A stretch of DNA of 64,000 nt from Desulfosporosinus nitroreducens (GTDB lineage: Bacteria > Bacillota > Desulfitobacteriia > Desulfitobacteriales > Desulfitobacteriaceae), in the NCBI RefSeq assembly GCF_023897015.1, contig NZ_JAMHFY010000008.1, forward strand, positions 124,001 to 188,000, read 5' to 3'. A model generated the notes under the pieces. The model saw only the letters and a program-made list of their open reading frames with translations. It did not search any database and was not told where the DNA came from. The translations under genes were made by a program, and so were the position numbers. This document shows positions 1,785-9,151 of this stretch, in pieces (within the stretch, counting starts at the first letter, position 1; each line of letters begins with the position of its first letter).

Positions 1785-3470
1785 CTACTGTTTAAAGAAG
1801 GCACTTCCAACATTAAGTCCTCCTTGGAGAAACGCCACTTGAGAGAGACCTTTGCTTTGGAGCATGCATGCCGCTTCGTAGCCCCTTATTCCTAATCCAC
1901 ATACAGTTATAATCAAAGAATCCCTTGGGATCTCTTCCCAACGATCTCGCAGTTCGCCTAACCCAATCACCATGGTCCCATTCAGGGACAGCGGGTTAGC
2001 CGCCACTTCGTCCGGCTCACGAATATCAAGTATGCAGAGCTTTTCCCCGGCTTCTAAGCGTTTTGTGACGTTTTCCGCTGTGATTCCTAACGCTATCCCC
2101 TGACGCATGTTTTCTAACGTTGTAGCAGCATGTATGAGCACATCAATAGCGGTGGCAAATGGCGGTGCATAGGCTAGGTCTAAATCAATCAAATCTTCTG
2201 CCTTAGCGCCAAATTTAAGCGCGGTTGCCAGTACATCTAGTCTTTTGGCACATTCCCCTATGCCACAGACTTGGGCGCCGAGTAAGCGGCCATTTTCCTG
2301 TTCAGCGATTAATTTAATCGTGATAAGAGCATGCATGGGATAATAGTGAGTAGCATCAAGGCCACTGCTCACACTGGTTACGACATTGTATCCGCGTTTG
2401 CGAGCCTCTTCTTCGCTTAATCCCGTGCGACCGATAGTAAGATCAAAGGCTTGAAGAATAGAGGTTCCCTCGACTGGGGCAAAGCGAGCGGGGATTCCAG
2501 CAATATGATCTGCGATTACGCGGCCTTGCTTGTTAGCGGTCGAGGCCAGCGGAATATAAACAGGTTCCCCTGTAAGAAGATGGCGTTGTTCGGCACAGTC
2601 TCCGCCAGCATATATAGCCGGATCATTGGTCATCTGATGCTCATTGACTTGAATTGCTCCTGTGTTGCCAATCGTGAGCCCGGCCTCTCTGGCAAGTCCA
2701 ATTTCTGGACGAACGCCAGTGGCGATAATCACCATTTCCGTTTCAATTGTTCCTTGTTCTGTTATGACTCGGCATACATTGTCTTCAGCATCCCCTTCGA
2801 AAGCCTTCACTTTACAGGAAAGTTGCAAATCAACGCCATGTCCCTTTATTTTTTGCTCAACCAGTTTGGACATGTCAGAATCAAGTAACTTCGGCAATAC
2901 CCGAGAATCTGCCTCACACATTGTAACCTTCAAACGAGGGCTGACTAGGGCATCCGCTGTTTCTATTCCGATTAACCCGGACCCAATTACAGTGACATGC
3001 TTCACCTGCTTTGTTTTAATCAAATCCTTGACACTTTGGGCATCATGCGGATGATGCATGGTGAATATCCGTCCTAACTTAACTCCAGGAATTGGCGGTA
3101 TACTCGGCTTAGCCCCGGTTGCGAGAACTAAATAATCATAAGGCAAGGCATCCTCGAGATTAGTAAGCAAATTTCGGACCCAAACCTTTTTATTACTCCT
3201 GTCAATTTTTATAGCTTCTGTTTGAGTGTGAACTTTTGCATTCTTTTGTGCCGCAAAAAATTCCGTATCTCTAATTACACCGTAGGAGGTCGTCATTAAA
3301 TCTTCTAATCGGGGCACTAAGTTAGCGACATAAAATGGCAGTCCACATCCTCCGTAAGAGATTAGACTTCCTTTTTCTAGGATGGTAATCTCAGCATCCG
3401 GATTAATACGCCTTAAACGTGCAGCCACTTTAGGACCAATAGCAACCCCGCCTACAATAATTACTTTCAT
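1785..3470 (-). CDS. CoA-disulfide reductase-like flavoprotein with C-terminal rhodanese domain
   Basis: A 561-residue fusion. Residues 1-450 are an FAD/NAD(P)H pyridine-nucleotide-disulfide oxidoreductase: N-terminal dinucleotide motif VIIVGGVAIGPKVAARL, redox Cys in SYGGCGLPFYV near residue 43 (the single-Cys signature of CoA-disulfide/persulfide reductases), a second Rossmann motif VIGSGLIGIE, and an ATG-type FAD motif before GGDCAE. Residues 465-561 are a rhodanese domain with active-site loop VCGLGIRG. This architecture (CoADR-Rhd) reduces CoA persulfides or polysulfide. It follows the CCG protein by 38 bp in one operon and has its own terminator. The physiological substrate is inferred. 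Confidence 0.88.
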   Translation of the reverse strand: MKVIIVGGVAIGPKVAARLRRINPDAEITILEKGSLISYGGCGLPFYVANLVPRLEDLMTTSYGVIRDTEFFAAQKNAKVHTQTEAIKIDRSNKKVWVRNLLTNLEDALPYDYLVLATGAKPSIPPIPGVKLGRIFTMHHPHDAQSVKDLIKTKQVKHVTVIGSGLIGIETADALVSPRLKVTMCEADSRVLPKLLDSDMSKLVEQKIKGHGVDLQLSCKVKAFEGDAEDNVCRVITEQGTIETEMVIIATGVRPEIGLAREAGLTIGNTGAIQVNEHQMTNDPAIYAGGDCAEQRHLLTGEPVYIPLASTANKQGRVIADHIAGIPARFAPVEGTSILQAFDLTIGRTGLSEEEARKRGYNVVTSVSSGLDATHYYPMHALITIKLIAEQENGRLLGAQVCGIGECAKRLDVLATALKFGAKAEDLIDLDLAYAPPFATAIDVLIHAATTLENMRQGIALGITAENVTKRLEAGEKLCILDIREPDEVAANPLSLNGTMVIGLGELRDRWEEIPRDSLIITVCGLGIRGYEAACMLQSKGLSQVAFLQGGLNVGSAFFKQ

Positions 3471-3508: not shown

Positions 3509-5122
3509 TTATTCCAAGAACTCTAAAAATGGTTTTTCCATACTTACAAGTGCATTAACCATCAATTCTACTAAACCGCCATATTGAACATTAAATTTGT
3601 CTGTCGCCTCGTAAAACTCTAGAATGTCGCGAATAGCTCCTTTACAATTAGAACAAGGTGCACACACATATTTAGGCAAGGCAGTATTTTTCATACTATC
3701 CTGAAAGGCTCCTAGGATCTGGTTAAACTTCATACGAGAGCTTACTTTGTTTCTCCATTCAGAGAAGTTCATAGAATTCGTAATAGCAAAACCACCGCCG
3801 CCGCCACAGCAGTAATTGTCAACACCATGCGGTGTCATTTCTCTGAACTGAGGACATATGGCTTTTAAGACATTTCGTTGCGGTTCCACAATCCCCATTC
3901 CTCGAACATAATTACAAGGATCATGTAGCGTTACAGGAAAGTTATTTTTTCGGGGATCTAACCTTAATTGTTTGAGCCTGACCATATCCCAAAGAAGAGG
4001 GAGACAACTCTCAACTGGAACTTTAGCATCTGCAAACACCATGCGATCCGCTATTAGCGCCGAAGCCTTATGGGCATGTCCGCACTCTGCGATGACTATT
4101 CGGTTGACTCCTAATTCTTTGGCAACTTTCATCTGCATTGTGGCCAGAGTTTTAGCTTGAAAATCATCATACCAGATGCCATAGTTTACATTGTCATATC
4201 CTGTGATTTCACTGCTAAGCGTCCAGTTTAGGCCAGCTTCTTCGAAGAGAATGGCAAAAGCTATGGGGTTTTCAGGCCAAGCCATATATTCGCCCGCATT
4301 ATGTAATAGAAGAATATCTGCACCTTTTTTGTCCATCGGAAATTTGATTTTTAAGCCATACTTCTCTTCGATATCCTCTTCTAAAAACTCTATCGTATCT
4401 AAGAAAGCCGGTTTGCTAACTCCCGTAGACGAACCTGTTTTTATCTGAAGCATCGTACCTTTGGTATGCAAGGGAAGAGGAGCAATGCCCATTTCTTGGC
4501 TAAATATTTTTCGGATTTCTTTCGTGAGAATGGCATTATCTAAGCCCAATGGACAAGTCTGAGCACAACGACGGCAAAGATTACATCGATAGGATAATTC
4601 TCCAAGCCGAGCAATTGTTTCCCAATTTACATCGATATCAGCTCCGACAAAACTGCCTAGAAGCTTTCCGCTTTTGGTAAAGTACTTCTTTACAATCTTT
4701 CGAAGAACTTCGGAGCGGAAAATTGGGCGATACAGCTCATTGTTTCCCGAGGCTTCGTAGATATGACAGGCCGCTGAACACGTATCACATTTTGCGCAGT
4801 ATTCAAAGGATAATAAGAGGGGCTGGAGCACTCCATTGTTGGCATCTGAAAAGCTTTTTTCTAAACCATTGAGGAATTTCCGTACAAATTCATCCTCTTC
4901 AGCTTTGGTTTTTGGGCGAATCAACGTATCGATTCCGACGTAGCCATCCAAAGATGTACAGAATTTTTCTTTCCATGCAGGCTTAGGATCGGTTAAGGGC
5001 GGTTCCATTCCAGGTTTATCATAGGGCGGAAATAAAGGCATTAGCTGTTCAGGTTCAAGTTTGATTAGTTGCTCATCTGATCGTCCCATATCCTTTGGGC
5101 GTAAATCTTTTTGATTGATCAT
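3509..5122 (-). CDS. Heterodisulfide-reductase-like Fe-S protein with CCG domains (HdrD/DsrK type)
   Basis: A 537-residue soluble protein. Two [4Fe-4S] ferredoxin motifs sit around residues 112-122 (CAKCDTCSAACH) and 180-192 (CNLCRRCAQTCPLG). The second half has cysteine-rich CCG domains, including DPCNYVRG and the diagnostic YCCGGGGGFA near residue 426. Relatives (HdrD, DsrK, GlcF) pass electrons to or from disulfides or persulfides. No membrane partner is next to it. It is the first gene of an operon with CoADR-Rhd, so a role in reducing thiol-bound sulfur is likely. Its promoter is a near copy of the promoter of the divergent ORP-like operon. Confidence 0.85.
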   Translation of the reverse strand: MINQKDLRPKDMGRSDEQLIKLEPEQLMPLFPPYDKPGMEPPLTDPKPAWKEKFCTSLDGYVGIDTLIRPKTKAEEDEFVRKFLNGLEKSFSDANNGVLQPLLLSFEYCAKCDTCSAACHIYEASGNNELYRPIFRSEVLRKIVKKYFTKSGKLLGSFVGADIDVNWETIARLGELSYRCNLCRRCAQTCPLGLDNAILTKEIRKIFSQEMGIAPLPLHTKGTMLQIKTGSSTGVSKPAFLDTIEFLEEDIEEKYGLKIKFPMDKKGADILLLHNAGEYMAWPENPIAFAILFEEAGLNWTLSSEITGYDNVNYGIWYDDFQAKTLATMQMKVAKELGVNRIVIAECGHAHKASALIADRMVFADAKVPVESCLPLLWDMVRLKQLRLDPRKNNFPVTLHDPCNYVRGMGIVEPQRNVLKAICPQFREMTPHGVDNYCCGGGGGFAITNSMNFSEWRNKVSSRMKFNQILGAFQDSMKNTALPKYVCAPCSNCKGAIRDILEFYEATDKFNVQYGGLVELMVNALVSMEKPFLEFLE

Positions 5123-5255: not shown

Positions 5256-5316
5256 TAGTTATTGACATATGCCCCATTCGATTTTATTATACTCTGTATT
5301 GAACATATGTCAATAA
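5256..5316 (-). promoter_or_regulatory. Minus-strand promoter with paired operators (twin 1)
   Basis: On the minus strand, TTGACA (5308-5313), a 16-base spacer and TATAAT (5286-5291) form a near-consensus promoter for the CCG/CoADR operon. The -35 lies inside the 13-mer TTATTGACATATG (5304-5316 complement), and an inverted copy of that 13-mer (5259-5271) lies over the start region. The whole block is an inverted, near-identical copy of 5476-5537. Confidence 0.8.
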
Positions 5317-5475
5317 ACGTTTTTTATTATCCTATGCATTGAATTTCTTAATATCTGGAATAGTTGTGTTTTTAATGGAGGGAGGTAAGGTGCAGCAAAT
5401 AAAAAGTCTGAATTTACGCTGAGAAAGAAAACTTTCTTGGTATTGAGGGAGGTCACCAGTGAACAGAACACATAG
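5317..5475. other. Spacer between the twin promoters
   Basis: It holds two very short plus-strand frames behind strong ribosome sites: GTG at about 5391 after GGAGGGAGGTAAG (10 codons) and GTG at 5460 after GAGGGAGGTCACC (7 codons). They may be leader peptides or relics of a lost gene. A small AAGAAAA/TTTTCTT-type inverted repeat lies between them. No longer gene is seen. Confidence 0.35.
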
Positions 5476-5537
5476 TTATTGACATATGTTCAAAATAGAG
5501 TATAATTCAATTTATAAAGGGCATATGTCAATAACTA
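5472..5537 (+). promoter_or_regulatory. Plus-strand promoter with paired operators (twin 2)
   Basis: TTGACA (5479-5484), a 16-base spacer and TATAAT (5501-5506) make a near-consensus promoter for the ORP-like operon. The 13-mer TTATTGACATATG covers the -35 (5476-5488) and its inverted copy CATATGTCAATAA (5522-5534) covers the start region. The flanks TTAGTTATTGACATATGCCC and TTGACATATGTTCAA recur in the divergent promoter, so both operons should respond to the same factor. Confidence 0.82.
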
Positions 5538-5551
5538 AAGGGGGCGGTAGT

Positions 5552-5758
5552 GTGCCTAGAAGAGATGGAACGGGTCCTATGGGCGAATCAATGAACAGTG
5601 CTGGCTTAGGCCAAGGGTCAGGTTACAGAAGGGGCCCAGGAAGAAATTTCACAAAAGATTTAATAGTATCAAAAACGCAAAAGGAATTGTTACAAGAGCG
5701 AAAAGAGCAACTTGAAAAAAGGCTTGCTGATATTAGCAAGCAATTAGAGATTTTATAA
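5552..5758 (+). CDS. DUF5320 family small protein
   Basis: A 68-residue protein beginning VPRRDGTGPMGESM, the Gly-rich start typical of DUF5320 proteins, followed by a C-terminal coiled-coil-like helix (KTQKELLQERKEQLEKRLAD). GTG at 5552 is chosen because AAGGGGGCGG precedes it at the right distance; the longer open frame upstream would begin inside the promoter. DUF5320 genes habitually sit with DUF134 and NifX-like genes. Molecular role unknown. First gene of the operon. Confidence 0.8.
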   Translation: MPRRDGTGPMGESMNSAGLGQGSGYRRGPGRNFTKDLIVSKTQKELLQERKEQLEKRLADISKQLEIL

Positions 5759-5824: not shown

Positions 5825-6205
5825 ATGCCAAGACCCAGAAAATGGAGAAAAGTTTGTTGCTTGCCGGAAAGCAACAGCTTTGGGCCACTAAATACATTAA
5901 TCAATCAAGAACATTTTGTAATCATGACAGTTGATGAGTATGAGACGATACGGCTCATTGACTTAGAAGGTTTTACCCAGGAAGAGTCAGCCGACCAAAT
6001 GAATATAGCACGTACAACCGTCCAGCGCATTTATAATGATGCGAGGAGAAAACTGGCAGATTCCTTGGTCAACGGAAAAATGTTAAGAATTGAGGGCGGT
6101 GATTATAAGCTGTGTGACGGACTTGAAAAAACATGCGGTTGTGGTGGCTGCCTCAGACATAAATGCGATAGAAGTTTTAGGCTTGAGGATAATGGAGGTG
6201 AGTGA
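5825..6205 (+). CDS. DUF134 family HTH regulator
   Basis: A 126-residue protein opening [21 protein letters not shown], the DUF134 hallmark. Residues 38-85 form a sigma-70-region-4-like helix-turn-helix ([18 protein letters not shown] ... [19 protein letters not shown]). The C-terminus is cysteine-rich ([18 protein letters not shown]) and could bind metal or an Fe-S cluster. It is the obvious local candidate for binding the duplicated operators upstream, though that is inference. Its stop overlaps the GTG of the next gene by 4 bp. Confidence 0.85.
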
Positions 6206-6600
6206 TCATATATTCTGAGAAAGTGATAGAACACTTTATGTGTCCACAAAATGCTTACAGTATGCCTGATGCCAATGCGCAGGGAGTATGTGGGGATTCT
6301 TCATGCGGAGATGAACTCATCATTTTTCTAAAAGTACAAGATAATTACATTCAAGAGATTAGTTATCTGGTGTTTGGTTGTTGTGCATCAATTGCAACAT
6401 CTAGTATGACGTCAGTATTGGCTAAAGGAAAAAGCCTGGAGGATGCTTTGGCTATTACCGAAGAAAATATTATCCAGGCACTGGATGGTCTCCCTGAGGC
6501 TAAGGTGCACTGTTCAAATCTAGGAGTTAGTGCTTTGCGTGATGCTATAAACAATTACCGCAAATCAACAAAGACAAGTGTTAAGGAGGATTCTCAATGA
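6202..6600 (+). CDS. NifU/IscU-like Fe-S scaffold protein
   Basis: A 132-residue NifU-N-type protein beginning [15 protein letters not shown]. It keeps the scaffold cysteines: one in [12 protein letters not shown] (the family usually has GNPxCGD), one in the [13 protein letters not shown] region, and one in KVHCSNLG. Such proteins hold a nascent Fe-S cluster and pass it on. GTG start with GGAGGTGA, overlapping DUF134; the next start overlaps its stop in an ATGA. The ORP-like context suggests it supplies clusters to the neighbouring MinD-type ATPases. Confidence 0.85.
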
Positions 6601-6962
6601 AAATTGCAATTCCAGTAGATGACAAATCCACGGAAACAAGTGTCTGCCAATCCTTTGGTCGTACCCCTTATTATCTGATTTATGATACCGAATCAAAGGA
6701 GAGTGTTTTTTTAGATAACAGTGCAGCAGCCAGCCAAGGCGGCGCTGGGATCAAGGCCGCGCAGACGATTGTAGACAGCAAGGTGAGCGCTTTACTTACT
6801 CCTCGATGTGGGGAGAATGCCGCAGATGTTCTCAAGGCAGCCAATATCAAATTATACAAGACTGTAAATGCTTCTATTCAAGACAATATTGATGCATTAA
6901 ATGACGGGAAGCTATCCTTGTTAGAAGATATCCATCCTGGGTTTCATGGTCATGGAGGCTAA
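6597..6962 (+). CDS. NifX/NifB-domain (dinitrogenase FeMo-cofactor family) protein 1
   Basis: A 121-residue protein of the NifX/NafY/ORP fold: MKIAIPVDD start, QSFGRTPYYLIYD, GAGIKAAQTIVD, and a C-terminal HGHGG tail. Family members carry a preformed Mo- or Fe-containing cluster. It is translationally coupled to the scaffold gene. In the Desulfovibrio orange-protein operon the equivalent protein binds a Mo-Cu-S cluster; whether this one does is not visible. Confidence 0.85.
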   Translation: MKIAIPVDDKSTETSVCQSFGRTPYYLIYDTESKESVFLDNSAAASQGGAGIKAAQTIVDSKVSALLTPRCGENAADVLKAANIKLYKTVNASIQDNIDALNDGKLSLLEDIHPGFHGHGG

Positions 6963-6966
6963 TAGC

Positions 6967-7824
6967 ATGAAGATAGCTGTGCTAAGCGGCAAGGGAGGCA
7001 CAGGAAAAACACTTGTATCTGTAAATCTGGCTTCGGCAGCTAAGGAAGCTATCTATATGGACTGCGATGTTGAAGAGCCAAACGGACGTCTTTTTTTTAA
7101 GCCCAAGAACATTACATCAGAAAGCGTCTCAATTAAAATTCCTTTCGCAGATCAAAAGCTTTGTATTGGTTGCCGGAAATGCATTGATTTTTGTAAGTTC
7201 AATGCTATAGCCTTTATCATCAACAAGGTGATCGTGTTTGATGACGTTTGTCATTCTTGTGGAGGGTGCGTACTTTTTTGTCCGGAGAAAGCCTTGTCGG
7301 AGAAAGACAAAATTATTGGAGAAGTTCAGAGCGGTGTTTCAGAAAATGTCAGTGTCATTACTGGAATATTAAATACCGGTGAAGCATCCGGCGTCCCCCT
7401 TATCAAGAAGCTCCTGAATAACAATTTAGCAGGGAAAGCATTGACCTTTATAGATTGTCCACCTGGGAGTGCCTGTATTGTCATGGAAAGCATCAAGGAT
7501 GCAGACTATTGTCTTATGGTTGCCGAGCCCACCCTGTTTGGAGTACATAATCTCAATATGGTTTATGAACTTGTAAAGTTGTTCAAAAAGCCGCATGCCG
7601 CAGTACTTAACAAATGTCTGGAGGGAGAAAATCCTGCTGAAGACTTTTGCCGAGAAAAGGATATTAAGATTTTAGGCAAGATACCCTTTGACAGTGAGCT
7701 TGGAACACTGAATTCAAATGCTCTCATCTCAGTTAGAGAGAACCAAAAGTATCGTGATATGTTCTCTTCCATGCTTCAAATTGTGGCTAAGGAGGTGCAA
7801 CATGAAACAGTTGCTAATTCTTAG
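6967..7824 (+). CDS. MinD/ParA-type P-loop ATPase with ferredoxin insert (ORP-cluster ATPase 1)
   Basis: A 285-residue protein. The deviant Walker A KGGTGKT is at residues 9-15. Then a 2x[4Fe-4S] ferredoxin insert: CIGCRKCIDFCKF and CHSCGGCVLFCPE. The Walker B-type IDCPPGSAC follows. The start is set at ATG 6967 because GGAGG lies 8 bp upstream; the earlier ATG lies inside the preceding gene. Desulfovibrio ORP complexes contain exactly two such ATPases, and this one is followed at once by a paralogue. It overlaps that gene by 23 bp. Confidence 0.88.
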   Translation: MKIAVLSGKGGTGKTLVSVNLASAAKEAIYMDCDVEEPNGRLFFKPKNITSESVSIKIPFADQKLCIGCRKCIDFCKFNAIAFIINKVIVFDDVCHSCGGCVLFCPEKALSEKDKIIGEVQSGVSENVSVITGILNTGEASGVPLIKKLLNNNLAGKALTFIDCPPGSACIVMESIKDADYCLMVAEPTLFGVHNLNMVYELVKLFKKPHAAVLNKCLEGENPAEDFCREKDIKILGKIPFDSELGTLNSNALISVRENQKYRDMFSSMLQIVAKEVQHETVANS

Positions 7825-8677
7825 CGGCAAGGGCGGTACGGGAAAGACAACAATCGCCAGTGCTTTTATCCAGTTATCAAAGGCTAAAGTGTATGCAGAT
7901 TGTGATGTGGATGCACCTAATTTGCATTTAATAATGAATCAGGCATCCGTTGCCAAACGCTCAGGCTATTATGGAATGCCCAAGGCACATATTGATCTAA
8001 ATGAATGTGTGCAATGTGATTTGTGCAGGCAAAACTGCCGGTTTAATGCTATTCAGGCGGATATTGATTATAAAGTTGATTACTATGGTTGTGAAGGTTG
8101 CGGCGTTTGTCAAGCCGTTTGTCCGGCAGGAGCTGTATCGCTCAAACCTGCCCTGGCAGGAGAATTAATGCTCTACGTGAATGATGACCTATTTTCAACT
8201 GCAGAGCTCAAAATGGGGAGCGGTAACTCAGGGATGCTTGTCACCGAGGTGAAAAAGCAGATGAAGTCAGTGGCTACAGATTCTGGGCTTGCAATCATTG
8301 ATGGATCTCCAGGTATAGGATGCCCGGTCATTGCCTCGCTTAGCGGTGTTGATATGGTGCTAATAGTTGCAGAACCTTCTATCTCAGGCATTAGTGATAT
8401 GGAACGCATCATTAAAACAGCGGAAAAATTCCATACCAGAATCGCCATTTGTATTAATAAATATGACACCAATATTGAAAATACAAAAAGGATAGAGTGG
8501 TTTTGTCAAAAACTCTATCTGCCTTGTGCAGGAAGAATACCCTATGACCCGGAAGCGGTTAAAGCAATCAACCAAGGTCAGAGCATTGTTGAGATGGATT
8601 GCGAAGCAGGACGTGCTGCCAAAGTTGTTTTTGATAAGACAATTAAACTGTTATTCAATGAAAGTTTAGTGTTGTAA
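7802..8677 (+). CDS. MinD/ParA-type P-loop ATPase with ferredoxin insert (ORP-cluster ATPase 2)
   Basis: A 291-residue paralogue of the gene before it: Walker A KGGTGKTT at residues 9-16, DCDVDAPNLHL, a ferredoxin insert with CVQCDLCRQNC and CEGCGVCQAVCPAG, then IIDGSPGIGCPV. ATG 7802 is chosen for its GGAGGTG site; a longer frame extends back into the previous gene but lacks a ribosome site. The pair probably acts as a heterodimer that uses ATP to load or deliver clusters to the NifX-like proteins. Confidence 0.88.
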   Translation: MKQLLILSGKGGTGKTTIASAFIQLSKAKVYADCDVDAPNLHLIMNQASVAKRSGYYGMPKAHIDLNECVQCDLCRQNCRFNAIQADIDYKVDYYGCEGCGVCQAVCPAGAVSLKPALAGELMLYVNDDLFSTAELKMGSGNSGMLVTEVKKQMKSVATDSGLAIIDGSPGIGCPVIASLSGVDMVLIVAEPSISGISDMERIIKTAEKFHTRIAICINKYDTNIENTKRIEWFCQKLYLPCAGRIPYDPEAVKAINQGQSIVEMDCEAGRAAKVVFDKTIKLLFNESLVL

Positions 8678-8794
8678 GTTTAATATGAACAAACCGATCA
8701 GCTTAGCAACTTGATAAAGGCATGTATGAATCTTTTGATGGGGACTGGCTTGATCATGTATTGTAAATTTTAGGTAAAAATGGAGGAAGATAAC

Positions 8795-9151
8795 ATGAAA
8801 ATCGCAGTAGCAAGTAATAATGGAATGGTTACAGAGCATTTTGGTCATTGCGAGAGTTTCAGCATCTTTGAAACTGAAAACAATCAGATTGTTAAGAGTG
8901 AGTCCATCCCAAACCCCGGGCATAAGCCGGGCTTTTTACCGAACTTCTTAAATGACATAGGAATCAATGTTATTATTTCAGGTGGTATGGGTGGTGGCGC
9001 GATCCAAATATTTAACGAGAAGGGTATCGAAGTAATCACAGGCGCAAAAGGGCTGGCAAAGGCTGCAGCAGATCTCTATTCACAAGGCAAACTAAAAACT
9101 ACTGGCTCAGTTTGCCATGAACATCAGCACCACGATGAATGCGGACATTAA
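8795..9151 (+). CDS. NifX/ORP-like cluster-binding protein 2
   Basis: A 118-residue protein of the NifX/NifB-C fold (MKIAVASNNGMVTEHFGH, then GGMGGGAIQIFNEKGIEV) ending in a His-rich tail CHEHQHHDECGH that could bind metal. It is 117 bp after ATPase 2, so it may have extra translation control or a weak promoter. ATG 8795 follows GGAGGAAGATAAC; an ATG 15 bp upstream overlaps that site and is less likely. Confidence 0.85.
   Translation: MKIAVASNNGMVTEHFGHCESFSIFETENNQIVKSESIPNPGHKPGFLPNFLNDIGINVIISGGMGGGAIQIFNEKGIEVITGAKGLAKAAADLYSQGKLKTTGSVCHEHQHHDECGH

Follow-up and report, generated by a model that had tools for sequence, protein, structure and literature searches.

The window analysed here is a stretch of 64,000 nucleotides from Desulfosporosinus nitroreducens (contig NZ_JAMHFY010000008.1, positions 124,001 to 188,000), and the region under study, positions 5256-5537 of the window, separates two divergently transcribed operons with start codons at 5122 on the minus strand and 5551 on the plus strand. 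Pfam assignments agree with the plus-strand gene order that had been read from the letters alone, DUF5320-DUF134-NifU-NifX-MinD-MinD-NifX, with DUF5320 scoring one bit below its cut-off. The first gene encodes the small DUF5320 protein (5551-5758; PF17253, 2.2e-05), for which comparison with homologues makes the GTG at 5551 (MPRRDGTGPMG) the most likely start. It is followed by DUF134 (5825-6205; PF02001, 7.4e-22), which scores 78.2 bits against a family cut-off of 27, carries a sigma-region-4-like helix-turn-helix (HTH) and is the regulator proposed here; Desulfosporosinus sp. SRJS8 has an identical protein. Downstream lie a NifU/IscU-like scaffold (6202-6600; Pfam, NCBIfam), a first NifX-like (Nitro_FeMo-Co) protein (6597-6962; Pfam), two MinD/ParA-type ATPases, each with a 4Fe-4S insert (6946-7824 and 7796-8677; Pfam), and a second NifX-like protein (8780-9151). 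MinD-type ATPases with 4Fe-4S inserts together with NifX-like proteins are the mark of an ORP/MrpORP cluster-assembly operon.

The minus-strand operon consists of a 4Fe-4S and CCG domain protein (3509-5122) and a CoA-disulfide reductase (CoADR)-rhodanese fusion (1785-3470; Pfam, NCBIfam), the pair that had been named in the sequence-only reading. The CCG protein can now be placed more precisely: at 386.4 bits it falls below the NCBIfam equivalog cut-off of 400 for DsrK, so that it was rejected as DsrK proper and is treated as a DsrK paralogue, of which a second copy, 83% identical, is present in the genome. Past a 300-bp gap after the CoADR-rhodanese gene, YedE-TusA-YedE sulfur genes occupy positions 1481-102, the YedE/YeeE-type sulfur transporter being represented by two half-length genes (849-1481 and 102-593) with TusA in between. 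The gap contains a hairpin-like repeat (1657-1692, AAAGCACGTTGA...TCAACGTGCTTT) that may be a terminator or an attenuator.

A promoter scan of the region returned exactly two matches at 12 of 12 positions, both TTGACA-N16-TATAAT and thus both with perfect sigma-70 consensus hexamers, at 5313-5286 on the minus strand and 5479-5506 on the plus strand. The two divergent promoters are inverted relative to each other. Inverted repeats of 36 nt (5281-5316/5476-5511, 89% identity) and 20 nt (5255-5274/5519-5538, 100% identity) together make up a pair of inverted modules, each about 62 bp long, as had been claimed. An exact 13-mer, TTATTGACATATG, occurs four times, at 5259-5271 (+), 5304-5316 (-), 5476-5488 (+) and 5522-5534 (-), and each promoter has two copies pointing inward, one over the -35 and the other at the predicted transcription start. 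Their start-to-start spacing, put at 45-46 bp beforehand, was measured as 45 and 46 bp. Apart from the four exact copies, no position in the window matches TTATTGACATATG with fewer than two mismatches, and the whole genome of 5.46 Mb holds five exact copies, compared with about 0.16 expected from length alone.

The four copies are real, but each is only half of a longer element: distant members of the family, such as that of Alkaliphilus (L108), keep the second half, giving a palindrome of 20-22 bp, GTTATTGACATATGTCAATAAC. The 13-mer thus makes up the strong arm of a dyad, and the inner arm is degenerate in the lineage of the window. Stand-alone half-sites were accordingly dropped, since distant relatives display the full dyad. 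The palindromes are paired at a centre-to-centre distance of 36-39 bp, the first covering the -35 and the second about +1 to +22. In the plus module, operator A (GTTATTGACATATGTTCAAAAT, 22 bp, 5475-5496, centre 5485/5486) overlaps the -35 hexamer TTGACA (5479-5484), the -10 hexamer TATAAT follows after 16 bp (5501-5506), the same spacing as in most relatives, and operator B (5514-5535, centre 5524/5525), 39 bp from A, is predicted to lie over about +1 to +22. The minus module repeats this layout on the opposite strand, with operator A (5296-5317, centre 5306/5307) over the -35 (5308-5313), the -10 at 5286-5291, and operator B (5258-5279, centre 5268/5269) 38 bp from A. The hexamers were placed by the promoter scan and the operators by the repeat search and a family alignment of 63 pairs.

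We then examined how far this arrangement is conserved. A DUF134 profile scan of one genome per species, covering 84,980 species, led to 80 named loci, chosen by two peptide patterns of which one spans the DUF134 recognition helix. They come from Clostridium, Acetobacterium, Alkaliphilus, Fusibacter, Syntrophomonas, Pectinatus, Bacillus and Thermoactinomyces and, as metagenome-assembled genomes whose labels outside the Bacillota may reflect misbinning, from Flexilinea (Chloroflexi) and Synergistaceae; DUF134 genes are also found in archaea. Seventy-nine of the 80 loci had enough upstream sequence for analysis. A half-site with at most one mismatch lies within 900 bp upstream of DUF134 at 70 of these, against 7.2 expected in shuffled controls (first-order resamplings), and is absent at the other nine; a pair of sites 30-48 bp apart is present at 50 of the 79, against 0.0 expected. 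Both palindromes are conserved among the 63 aligned pairs, with a centre spacing of 36-39 bp in 53 of them. The -10 matches TATAAT at five or six positions in 57 of the 63, and in 51 of those 57 exactly 16 bp separate it from the preceding TTGACA of site A. The spacers have diverged in this alignment, conservation being confined to the operators and the -10. The consensus operator is TTATTGACATATGTCAATAA, with a nearly invariant central ATAT. Site B retains TTGAC without any need for a -35 there, and TTGAC is therefore probably maintained by a regulator and not by sigma. The operator thus stands at DUF134's own promoter and is conserved there in relatives, as expected of an autoregulatory dual-operator repressor.

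The presence of the pair is statistically tied to that of DUF134. Among 398 genomes sampled independently from the phylum, 276 encode PF02001; the pair occurs in 43, all of which (43/43) encode PF02001, and in none of the 122 genomes lacking it (Fisher p 7e-8, in a test that ignores kinship). Within the order, the pair TTGACATATG-N18..40-CATATGTCAA was found in 25 of 74 genomes and its reversed control pattern in none of the 74, and a class-level pattern search of nine further genomes outside the order gave no matches. Of the 46 places in the order, 31 have a DUF134 gene no more than 1.2 kb away; the remaining 15 have none inside that distance, as would be expected for a regulon and also for an unlinked regulator.

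Those places away from DUF134 that could be read belong to operons of like kind: ferredoxin/CCG genes, stand-alone NifX, and NifX with a CbiM-type transporter. In the genome of the window, the fifth exact TTATTGACATATG, on another contig, forms a third module with a one-mismatch partner before genes for a ferredoxin and an HmcF/TmcB-like CCG protein. At two loci (L186 7703-7742; L189 3422-3461), a NifX gene and then a CbiM-like cobalt/nickel transport operon follow the operator pair; the CbiM assignment comes from reading the protein sequence rather than from a family search. As for the divergent DsrK paralogue, 13 of its 17 closest CCG orthologues (85-100% identity) retain the site and four are without it, and more distant copies of this paralogue lack it. 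Loss of the 13-mers in relatives that retain both operons had been named beforehand as the outcome that would speak against co-regulation; with some exceptions, the sites are retained. The same paired operator stands at both promoters and is kept at both in relatives, so that co-regulation of the two operons, as originally suggested, is well supported by sequence comparison.

DUF134 paralogues are accompanied at their genes by palindromes that resemble one another without being the same; the operators of the three types are TTATTGACATATGTCAATAA, TTGAGCATATGCTCAA and TTATTGGCATTTGACAATAA. A paralogue with the helix SRATFQRIL goes with the palindrome TTGAGCATATGCYCAA, which was found in 27 genomes and, at 25 of 31 places, less than 700 bp from a DUF134 gene. 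Three genomes (G004, G016 and G023) that have this paralogue and no ORP-type DUF134 carry only the operator TTGAGCATATGCYCAA. In the second DUF134 paralogue of the genus (L191-L198; G000:C14:74814-74829 in the genome of the window), TTGAGCATATGCYCAA is located between the -10 and the ribosome-binding site, and that genome has an extra copy at G000:C88:40239, distant from all DUF134 genes. The form TTATTGGCATTTRACAATAA was detected in 13 genomes, in all of which the contig that carries it also has a DUF134 gene of non-ORP type. A third type, with the helix SRQTFQNII (L199-L206), has TTATTGGCATTTGACAATAA between its gene and a divergent CoA-disulfide-reductase-like gene. Genomes lacking the motif have a DUF134 with an SRPTFQ-like helix in place of ARTTVQ, and a near-match to the site was seen at two of 28 such genes. 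Six of eight DUF134 genes with an SRPTFF helix have a TTGACATATG-like half-site upstream (L267, L270, L273, L276, L278, L285).

Several Bacillota encode DUF134 as a fusion protein that continues into a Nitro_FeMo-Co (NifX) domain at the C-terminus, frequently together with a His/Cys-rich tail. Eight such fusions were examined (L245, L251, L252, L253, L255, L256, L257 and L259), the one in L245 confirmed by Pfam and the other seven recognized from their translations; DUF134 is their sole recognized DNA-binding domain, and the site lies close upstream of six of the eight, one with a CATAAG core. Two cysteines of DUF134, C11 and C97, are invariant in 47 sequences.

The AF2 model of DUF134 has a mean pLDDT of 74, rising to about 87-93 in the HTH region, which is of the sigma region 4 type and also gives a Pfam Sigma70_r4 match. 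In Foldseek comparisons, the model HTH superposes on region 4 of SigR (5fgm) at 0.7 Å over 50 residues and on the DNA-binding domain of DeoR with operator (PDB 7bhy/8r7y) at 0.6 Å over 40 residues; among solved structures, DeoR of Bacillus subtilis also gives the best match by profile (E 0.005). Like this member of the SorC/DeoR family, DUF134 is linked to a palindromic operator whose arms are of the TTGA/TCAA type. Unlike DeoR, DUF134 has no large effector-binding domain but a short Cys-bearing tail or, in the fusions, a NifX domain. With sigma region 4 (5fgm; sigma-E with -35 DNA, 2h27) it shares the HTH fold, and the DUF134-linked operator embeds the -35 hexamer; unlike sigma factors, DUF134 lacks region 2 and any sign of polymerase binding, and its site is palindromic and paired.

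Co-occurrence, paralogue-specific operators, helix differences, NifX fusions and the HTH fold favour DUF134 as the binder. Of the two candidate regulators put forward originally, a CRP/FNR-family factor and DUF134, the latter is now strongly favoured as the predicted binder and the former is poorly supported. We consider it probable that DUF134 represses its own ORP-type operon, the divergent DsrK-paralogue/CoADR operon and the third, ferredoxin/HmcF-like operon through the paired operators. The four 13-mers would then represent two operator pairs for DUF134, the product of gene two in the plus-strand operon. Through its sigma-region-4-fold HTH, a dimer of DUF134 would recognize the 20-22 bp GTTATTGACATATGTCAATAAC, a sequence that embeds the -35 TTGACA; since sigma factors use this fold to recognize the -35, polymerase and repressor would compete for the same bases. 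One dimer, at operator A, would cover the -35, and a second one, 38-39 bp away at operator B, the transcription start, and both together would block polymerase and keep a consensus-strong promoter off. Binding and dimerisation are, like repression, predicted properties, and we infer repression rather than activation from the position of the operators. The DUF134 operon would be autoregulated, and the divergent operon and the unlinked ferredoxin and HmcF/TmcB-like CCG operon would belong to the same regulon. The fused NifX domains, the NifX, NifU and MinD genes, the CbiM-type transporter and the DUF134 cysteines make a metal-sulfur cofactor or a metal our best guess for the signal, and DUF134 might, at a guess, be released according to the state of a metal-sulfur cofactor on NifX-type partners. 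Direct action of sulfide or polysulfide on DUF134 is possible.

That DUF134 binds these sites but activates transcription, or switches by means of a bound cofactor, appears unlikely. The two operators flank the -10 at a conserved spacing, a position compatible with a cofactor-dependent switch, but the -35 and -10 hexamers are perfect as they stand, and the -35, which RNA polymerase needs, lies under operator A; this combination is the reason why the sites are read as repressor operators. Hardly any credence attaches to the idea that the inverted modules merely record a recent duplication and inversion of a promoter, with no specific regulator. The two modules are indeed near-identical inverted copies in this genome, but paired palindromes recur with diverged spacers in the 43 of 398 phylum genomes, where only the operators and the -10 are kept, and TTGAC persists in site B although no -35 is required at that position.

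It is also very improbable that the TTGAC-N4-GTCAA sites are bound by an Fnr- or HcpR-like member of the Crp/Fnr family that co-regulates the two operons, with DUF134 a mere target. The Fnr box is TTGAT-N4-ATCAA, and another type of Crp/Fnr box is TTGTGA-N6-TCACAA; the half-site and spacing of the operator resemble the former. However, TTATTGACATATGTCAATAA departs from these box consensuses in its N4 core, which is near-invariant as ATAT, and the conserved site reaches 20-22 bp. An HTH_Crp_2 match of some kind was present in all 41 motif genomes tested, exceeding the curated cut-off in 38; the lack of a match above it in the other three speaks against this rival, although Crp/Fnr proteins are too ubiquitous to be dismissed by absence. 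A Crp/Fnr-like gene adjoins the module at two loci of the phylum search (L222 and L240), but searching by homology to two Crp/Fnr proteins brought up such genes in only two of 80 flanks, and a Crp/Fnr factor gives no reason for operator variants that track DUF134 paralogue types or for sites at DUF134 fusions.

Repression by DUF134 may be compared with the control of known ORP systems. In Desulfovibrio vulgaris, the divergent orp1/orp2 operons are under sigma54/DVU2106 control, with IHF (PMC3897727; Fievet 2011). In both systems, ORP-type genes are found in divergent operons under common control, and the regulator is a repressor of its own gene as well, a property that is predicted here. Unlike the sigma54, IHF and enhancer-binding protein of D. 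vulgaris, the window has sigma70-type promoters and putative DUF134 operators, and its divergent partner operon is different; control by DUF134 would therefore solve the same problem of coordination in a separate way. MrpORP of Desulfovibrio (PMC6345978) likewise combines an ATPase with a NifX/ORP-type domain in Fe-S biogenesis, and its C-terminal part is matched by the second NifX-like protein of the window; the window differs in having separate genes and a NifU-type scaffold in the same operon.

We found no function or binding described for the motif, DUF134, UPF0251, COG1342 or DUF5320 in open-access papers, and subscription journals or RegPrecise may hold a prior regulon prediction. To our knowledge, the physiological signal of the ORP complex is not known. 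UPF0251 is mentioned once, as a secondary mutation in a rex-deletion strain (PMC5886521).

More tentatively, and with somewhat less than even confidence, PF02001/DUF134 proteins may be widespread small autoregulatory repressors that read palindromes containing the -35 by means of their sigma-region-4-like HTH, sense a metal-sulfur cofactor of the ORP/NifX type by way of a fused NifX domain or a NifX-type partner, and couple cofactor assembly to persulfide/disulfide reduction in anaerobes. The predicted operator, the fixed promoter layout, the three paralogue-operator pairs and the NifX fusions make DUF134 a directly testable regulator family. DUF134 could moreover serve as a reporter for the ORP complex, as the signal that releases it would tell what the complex responds to.
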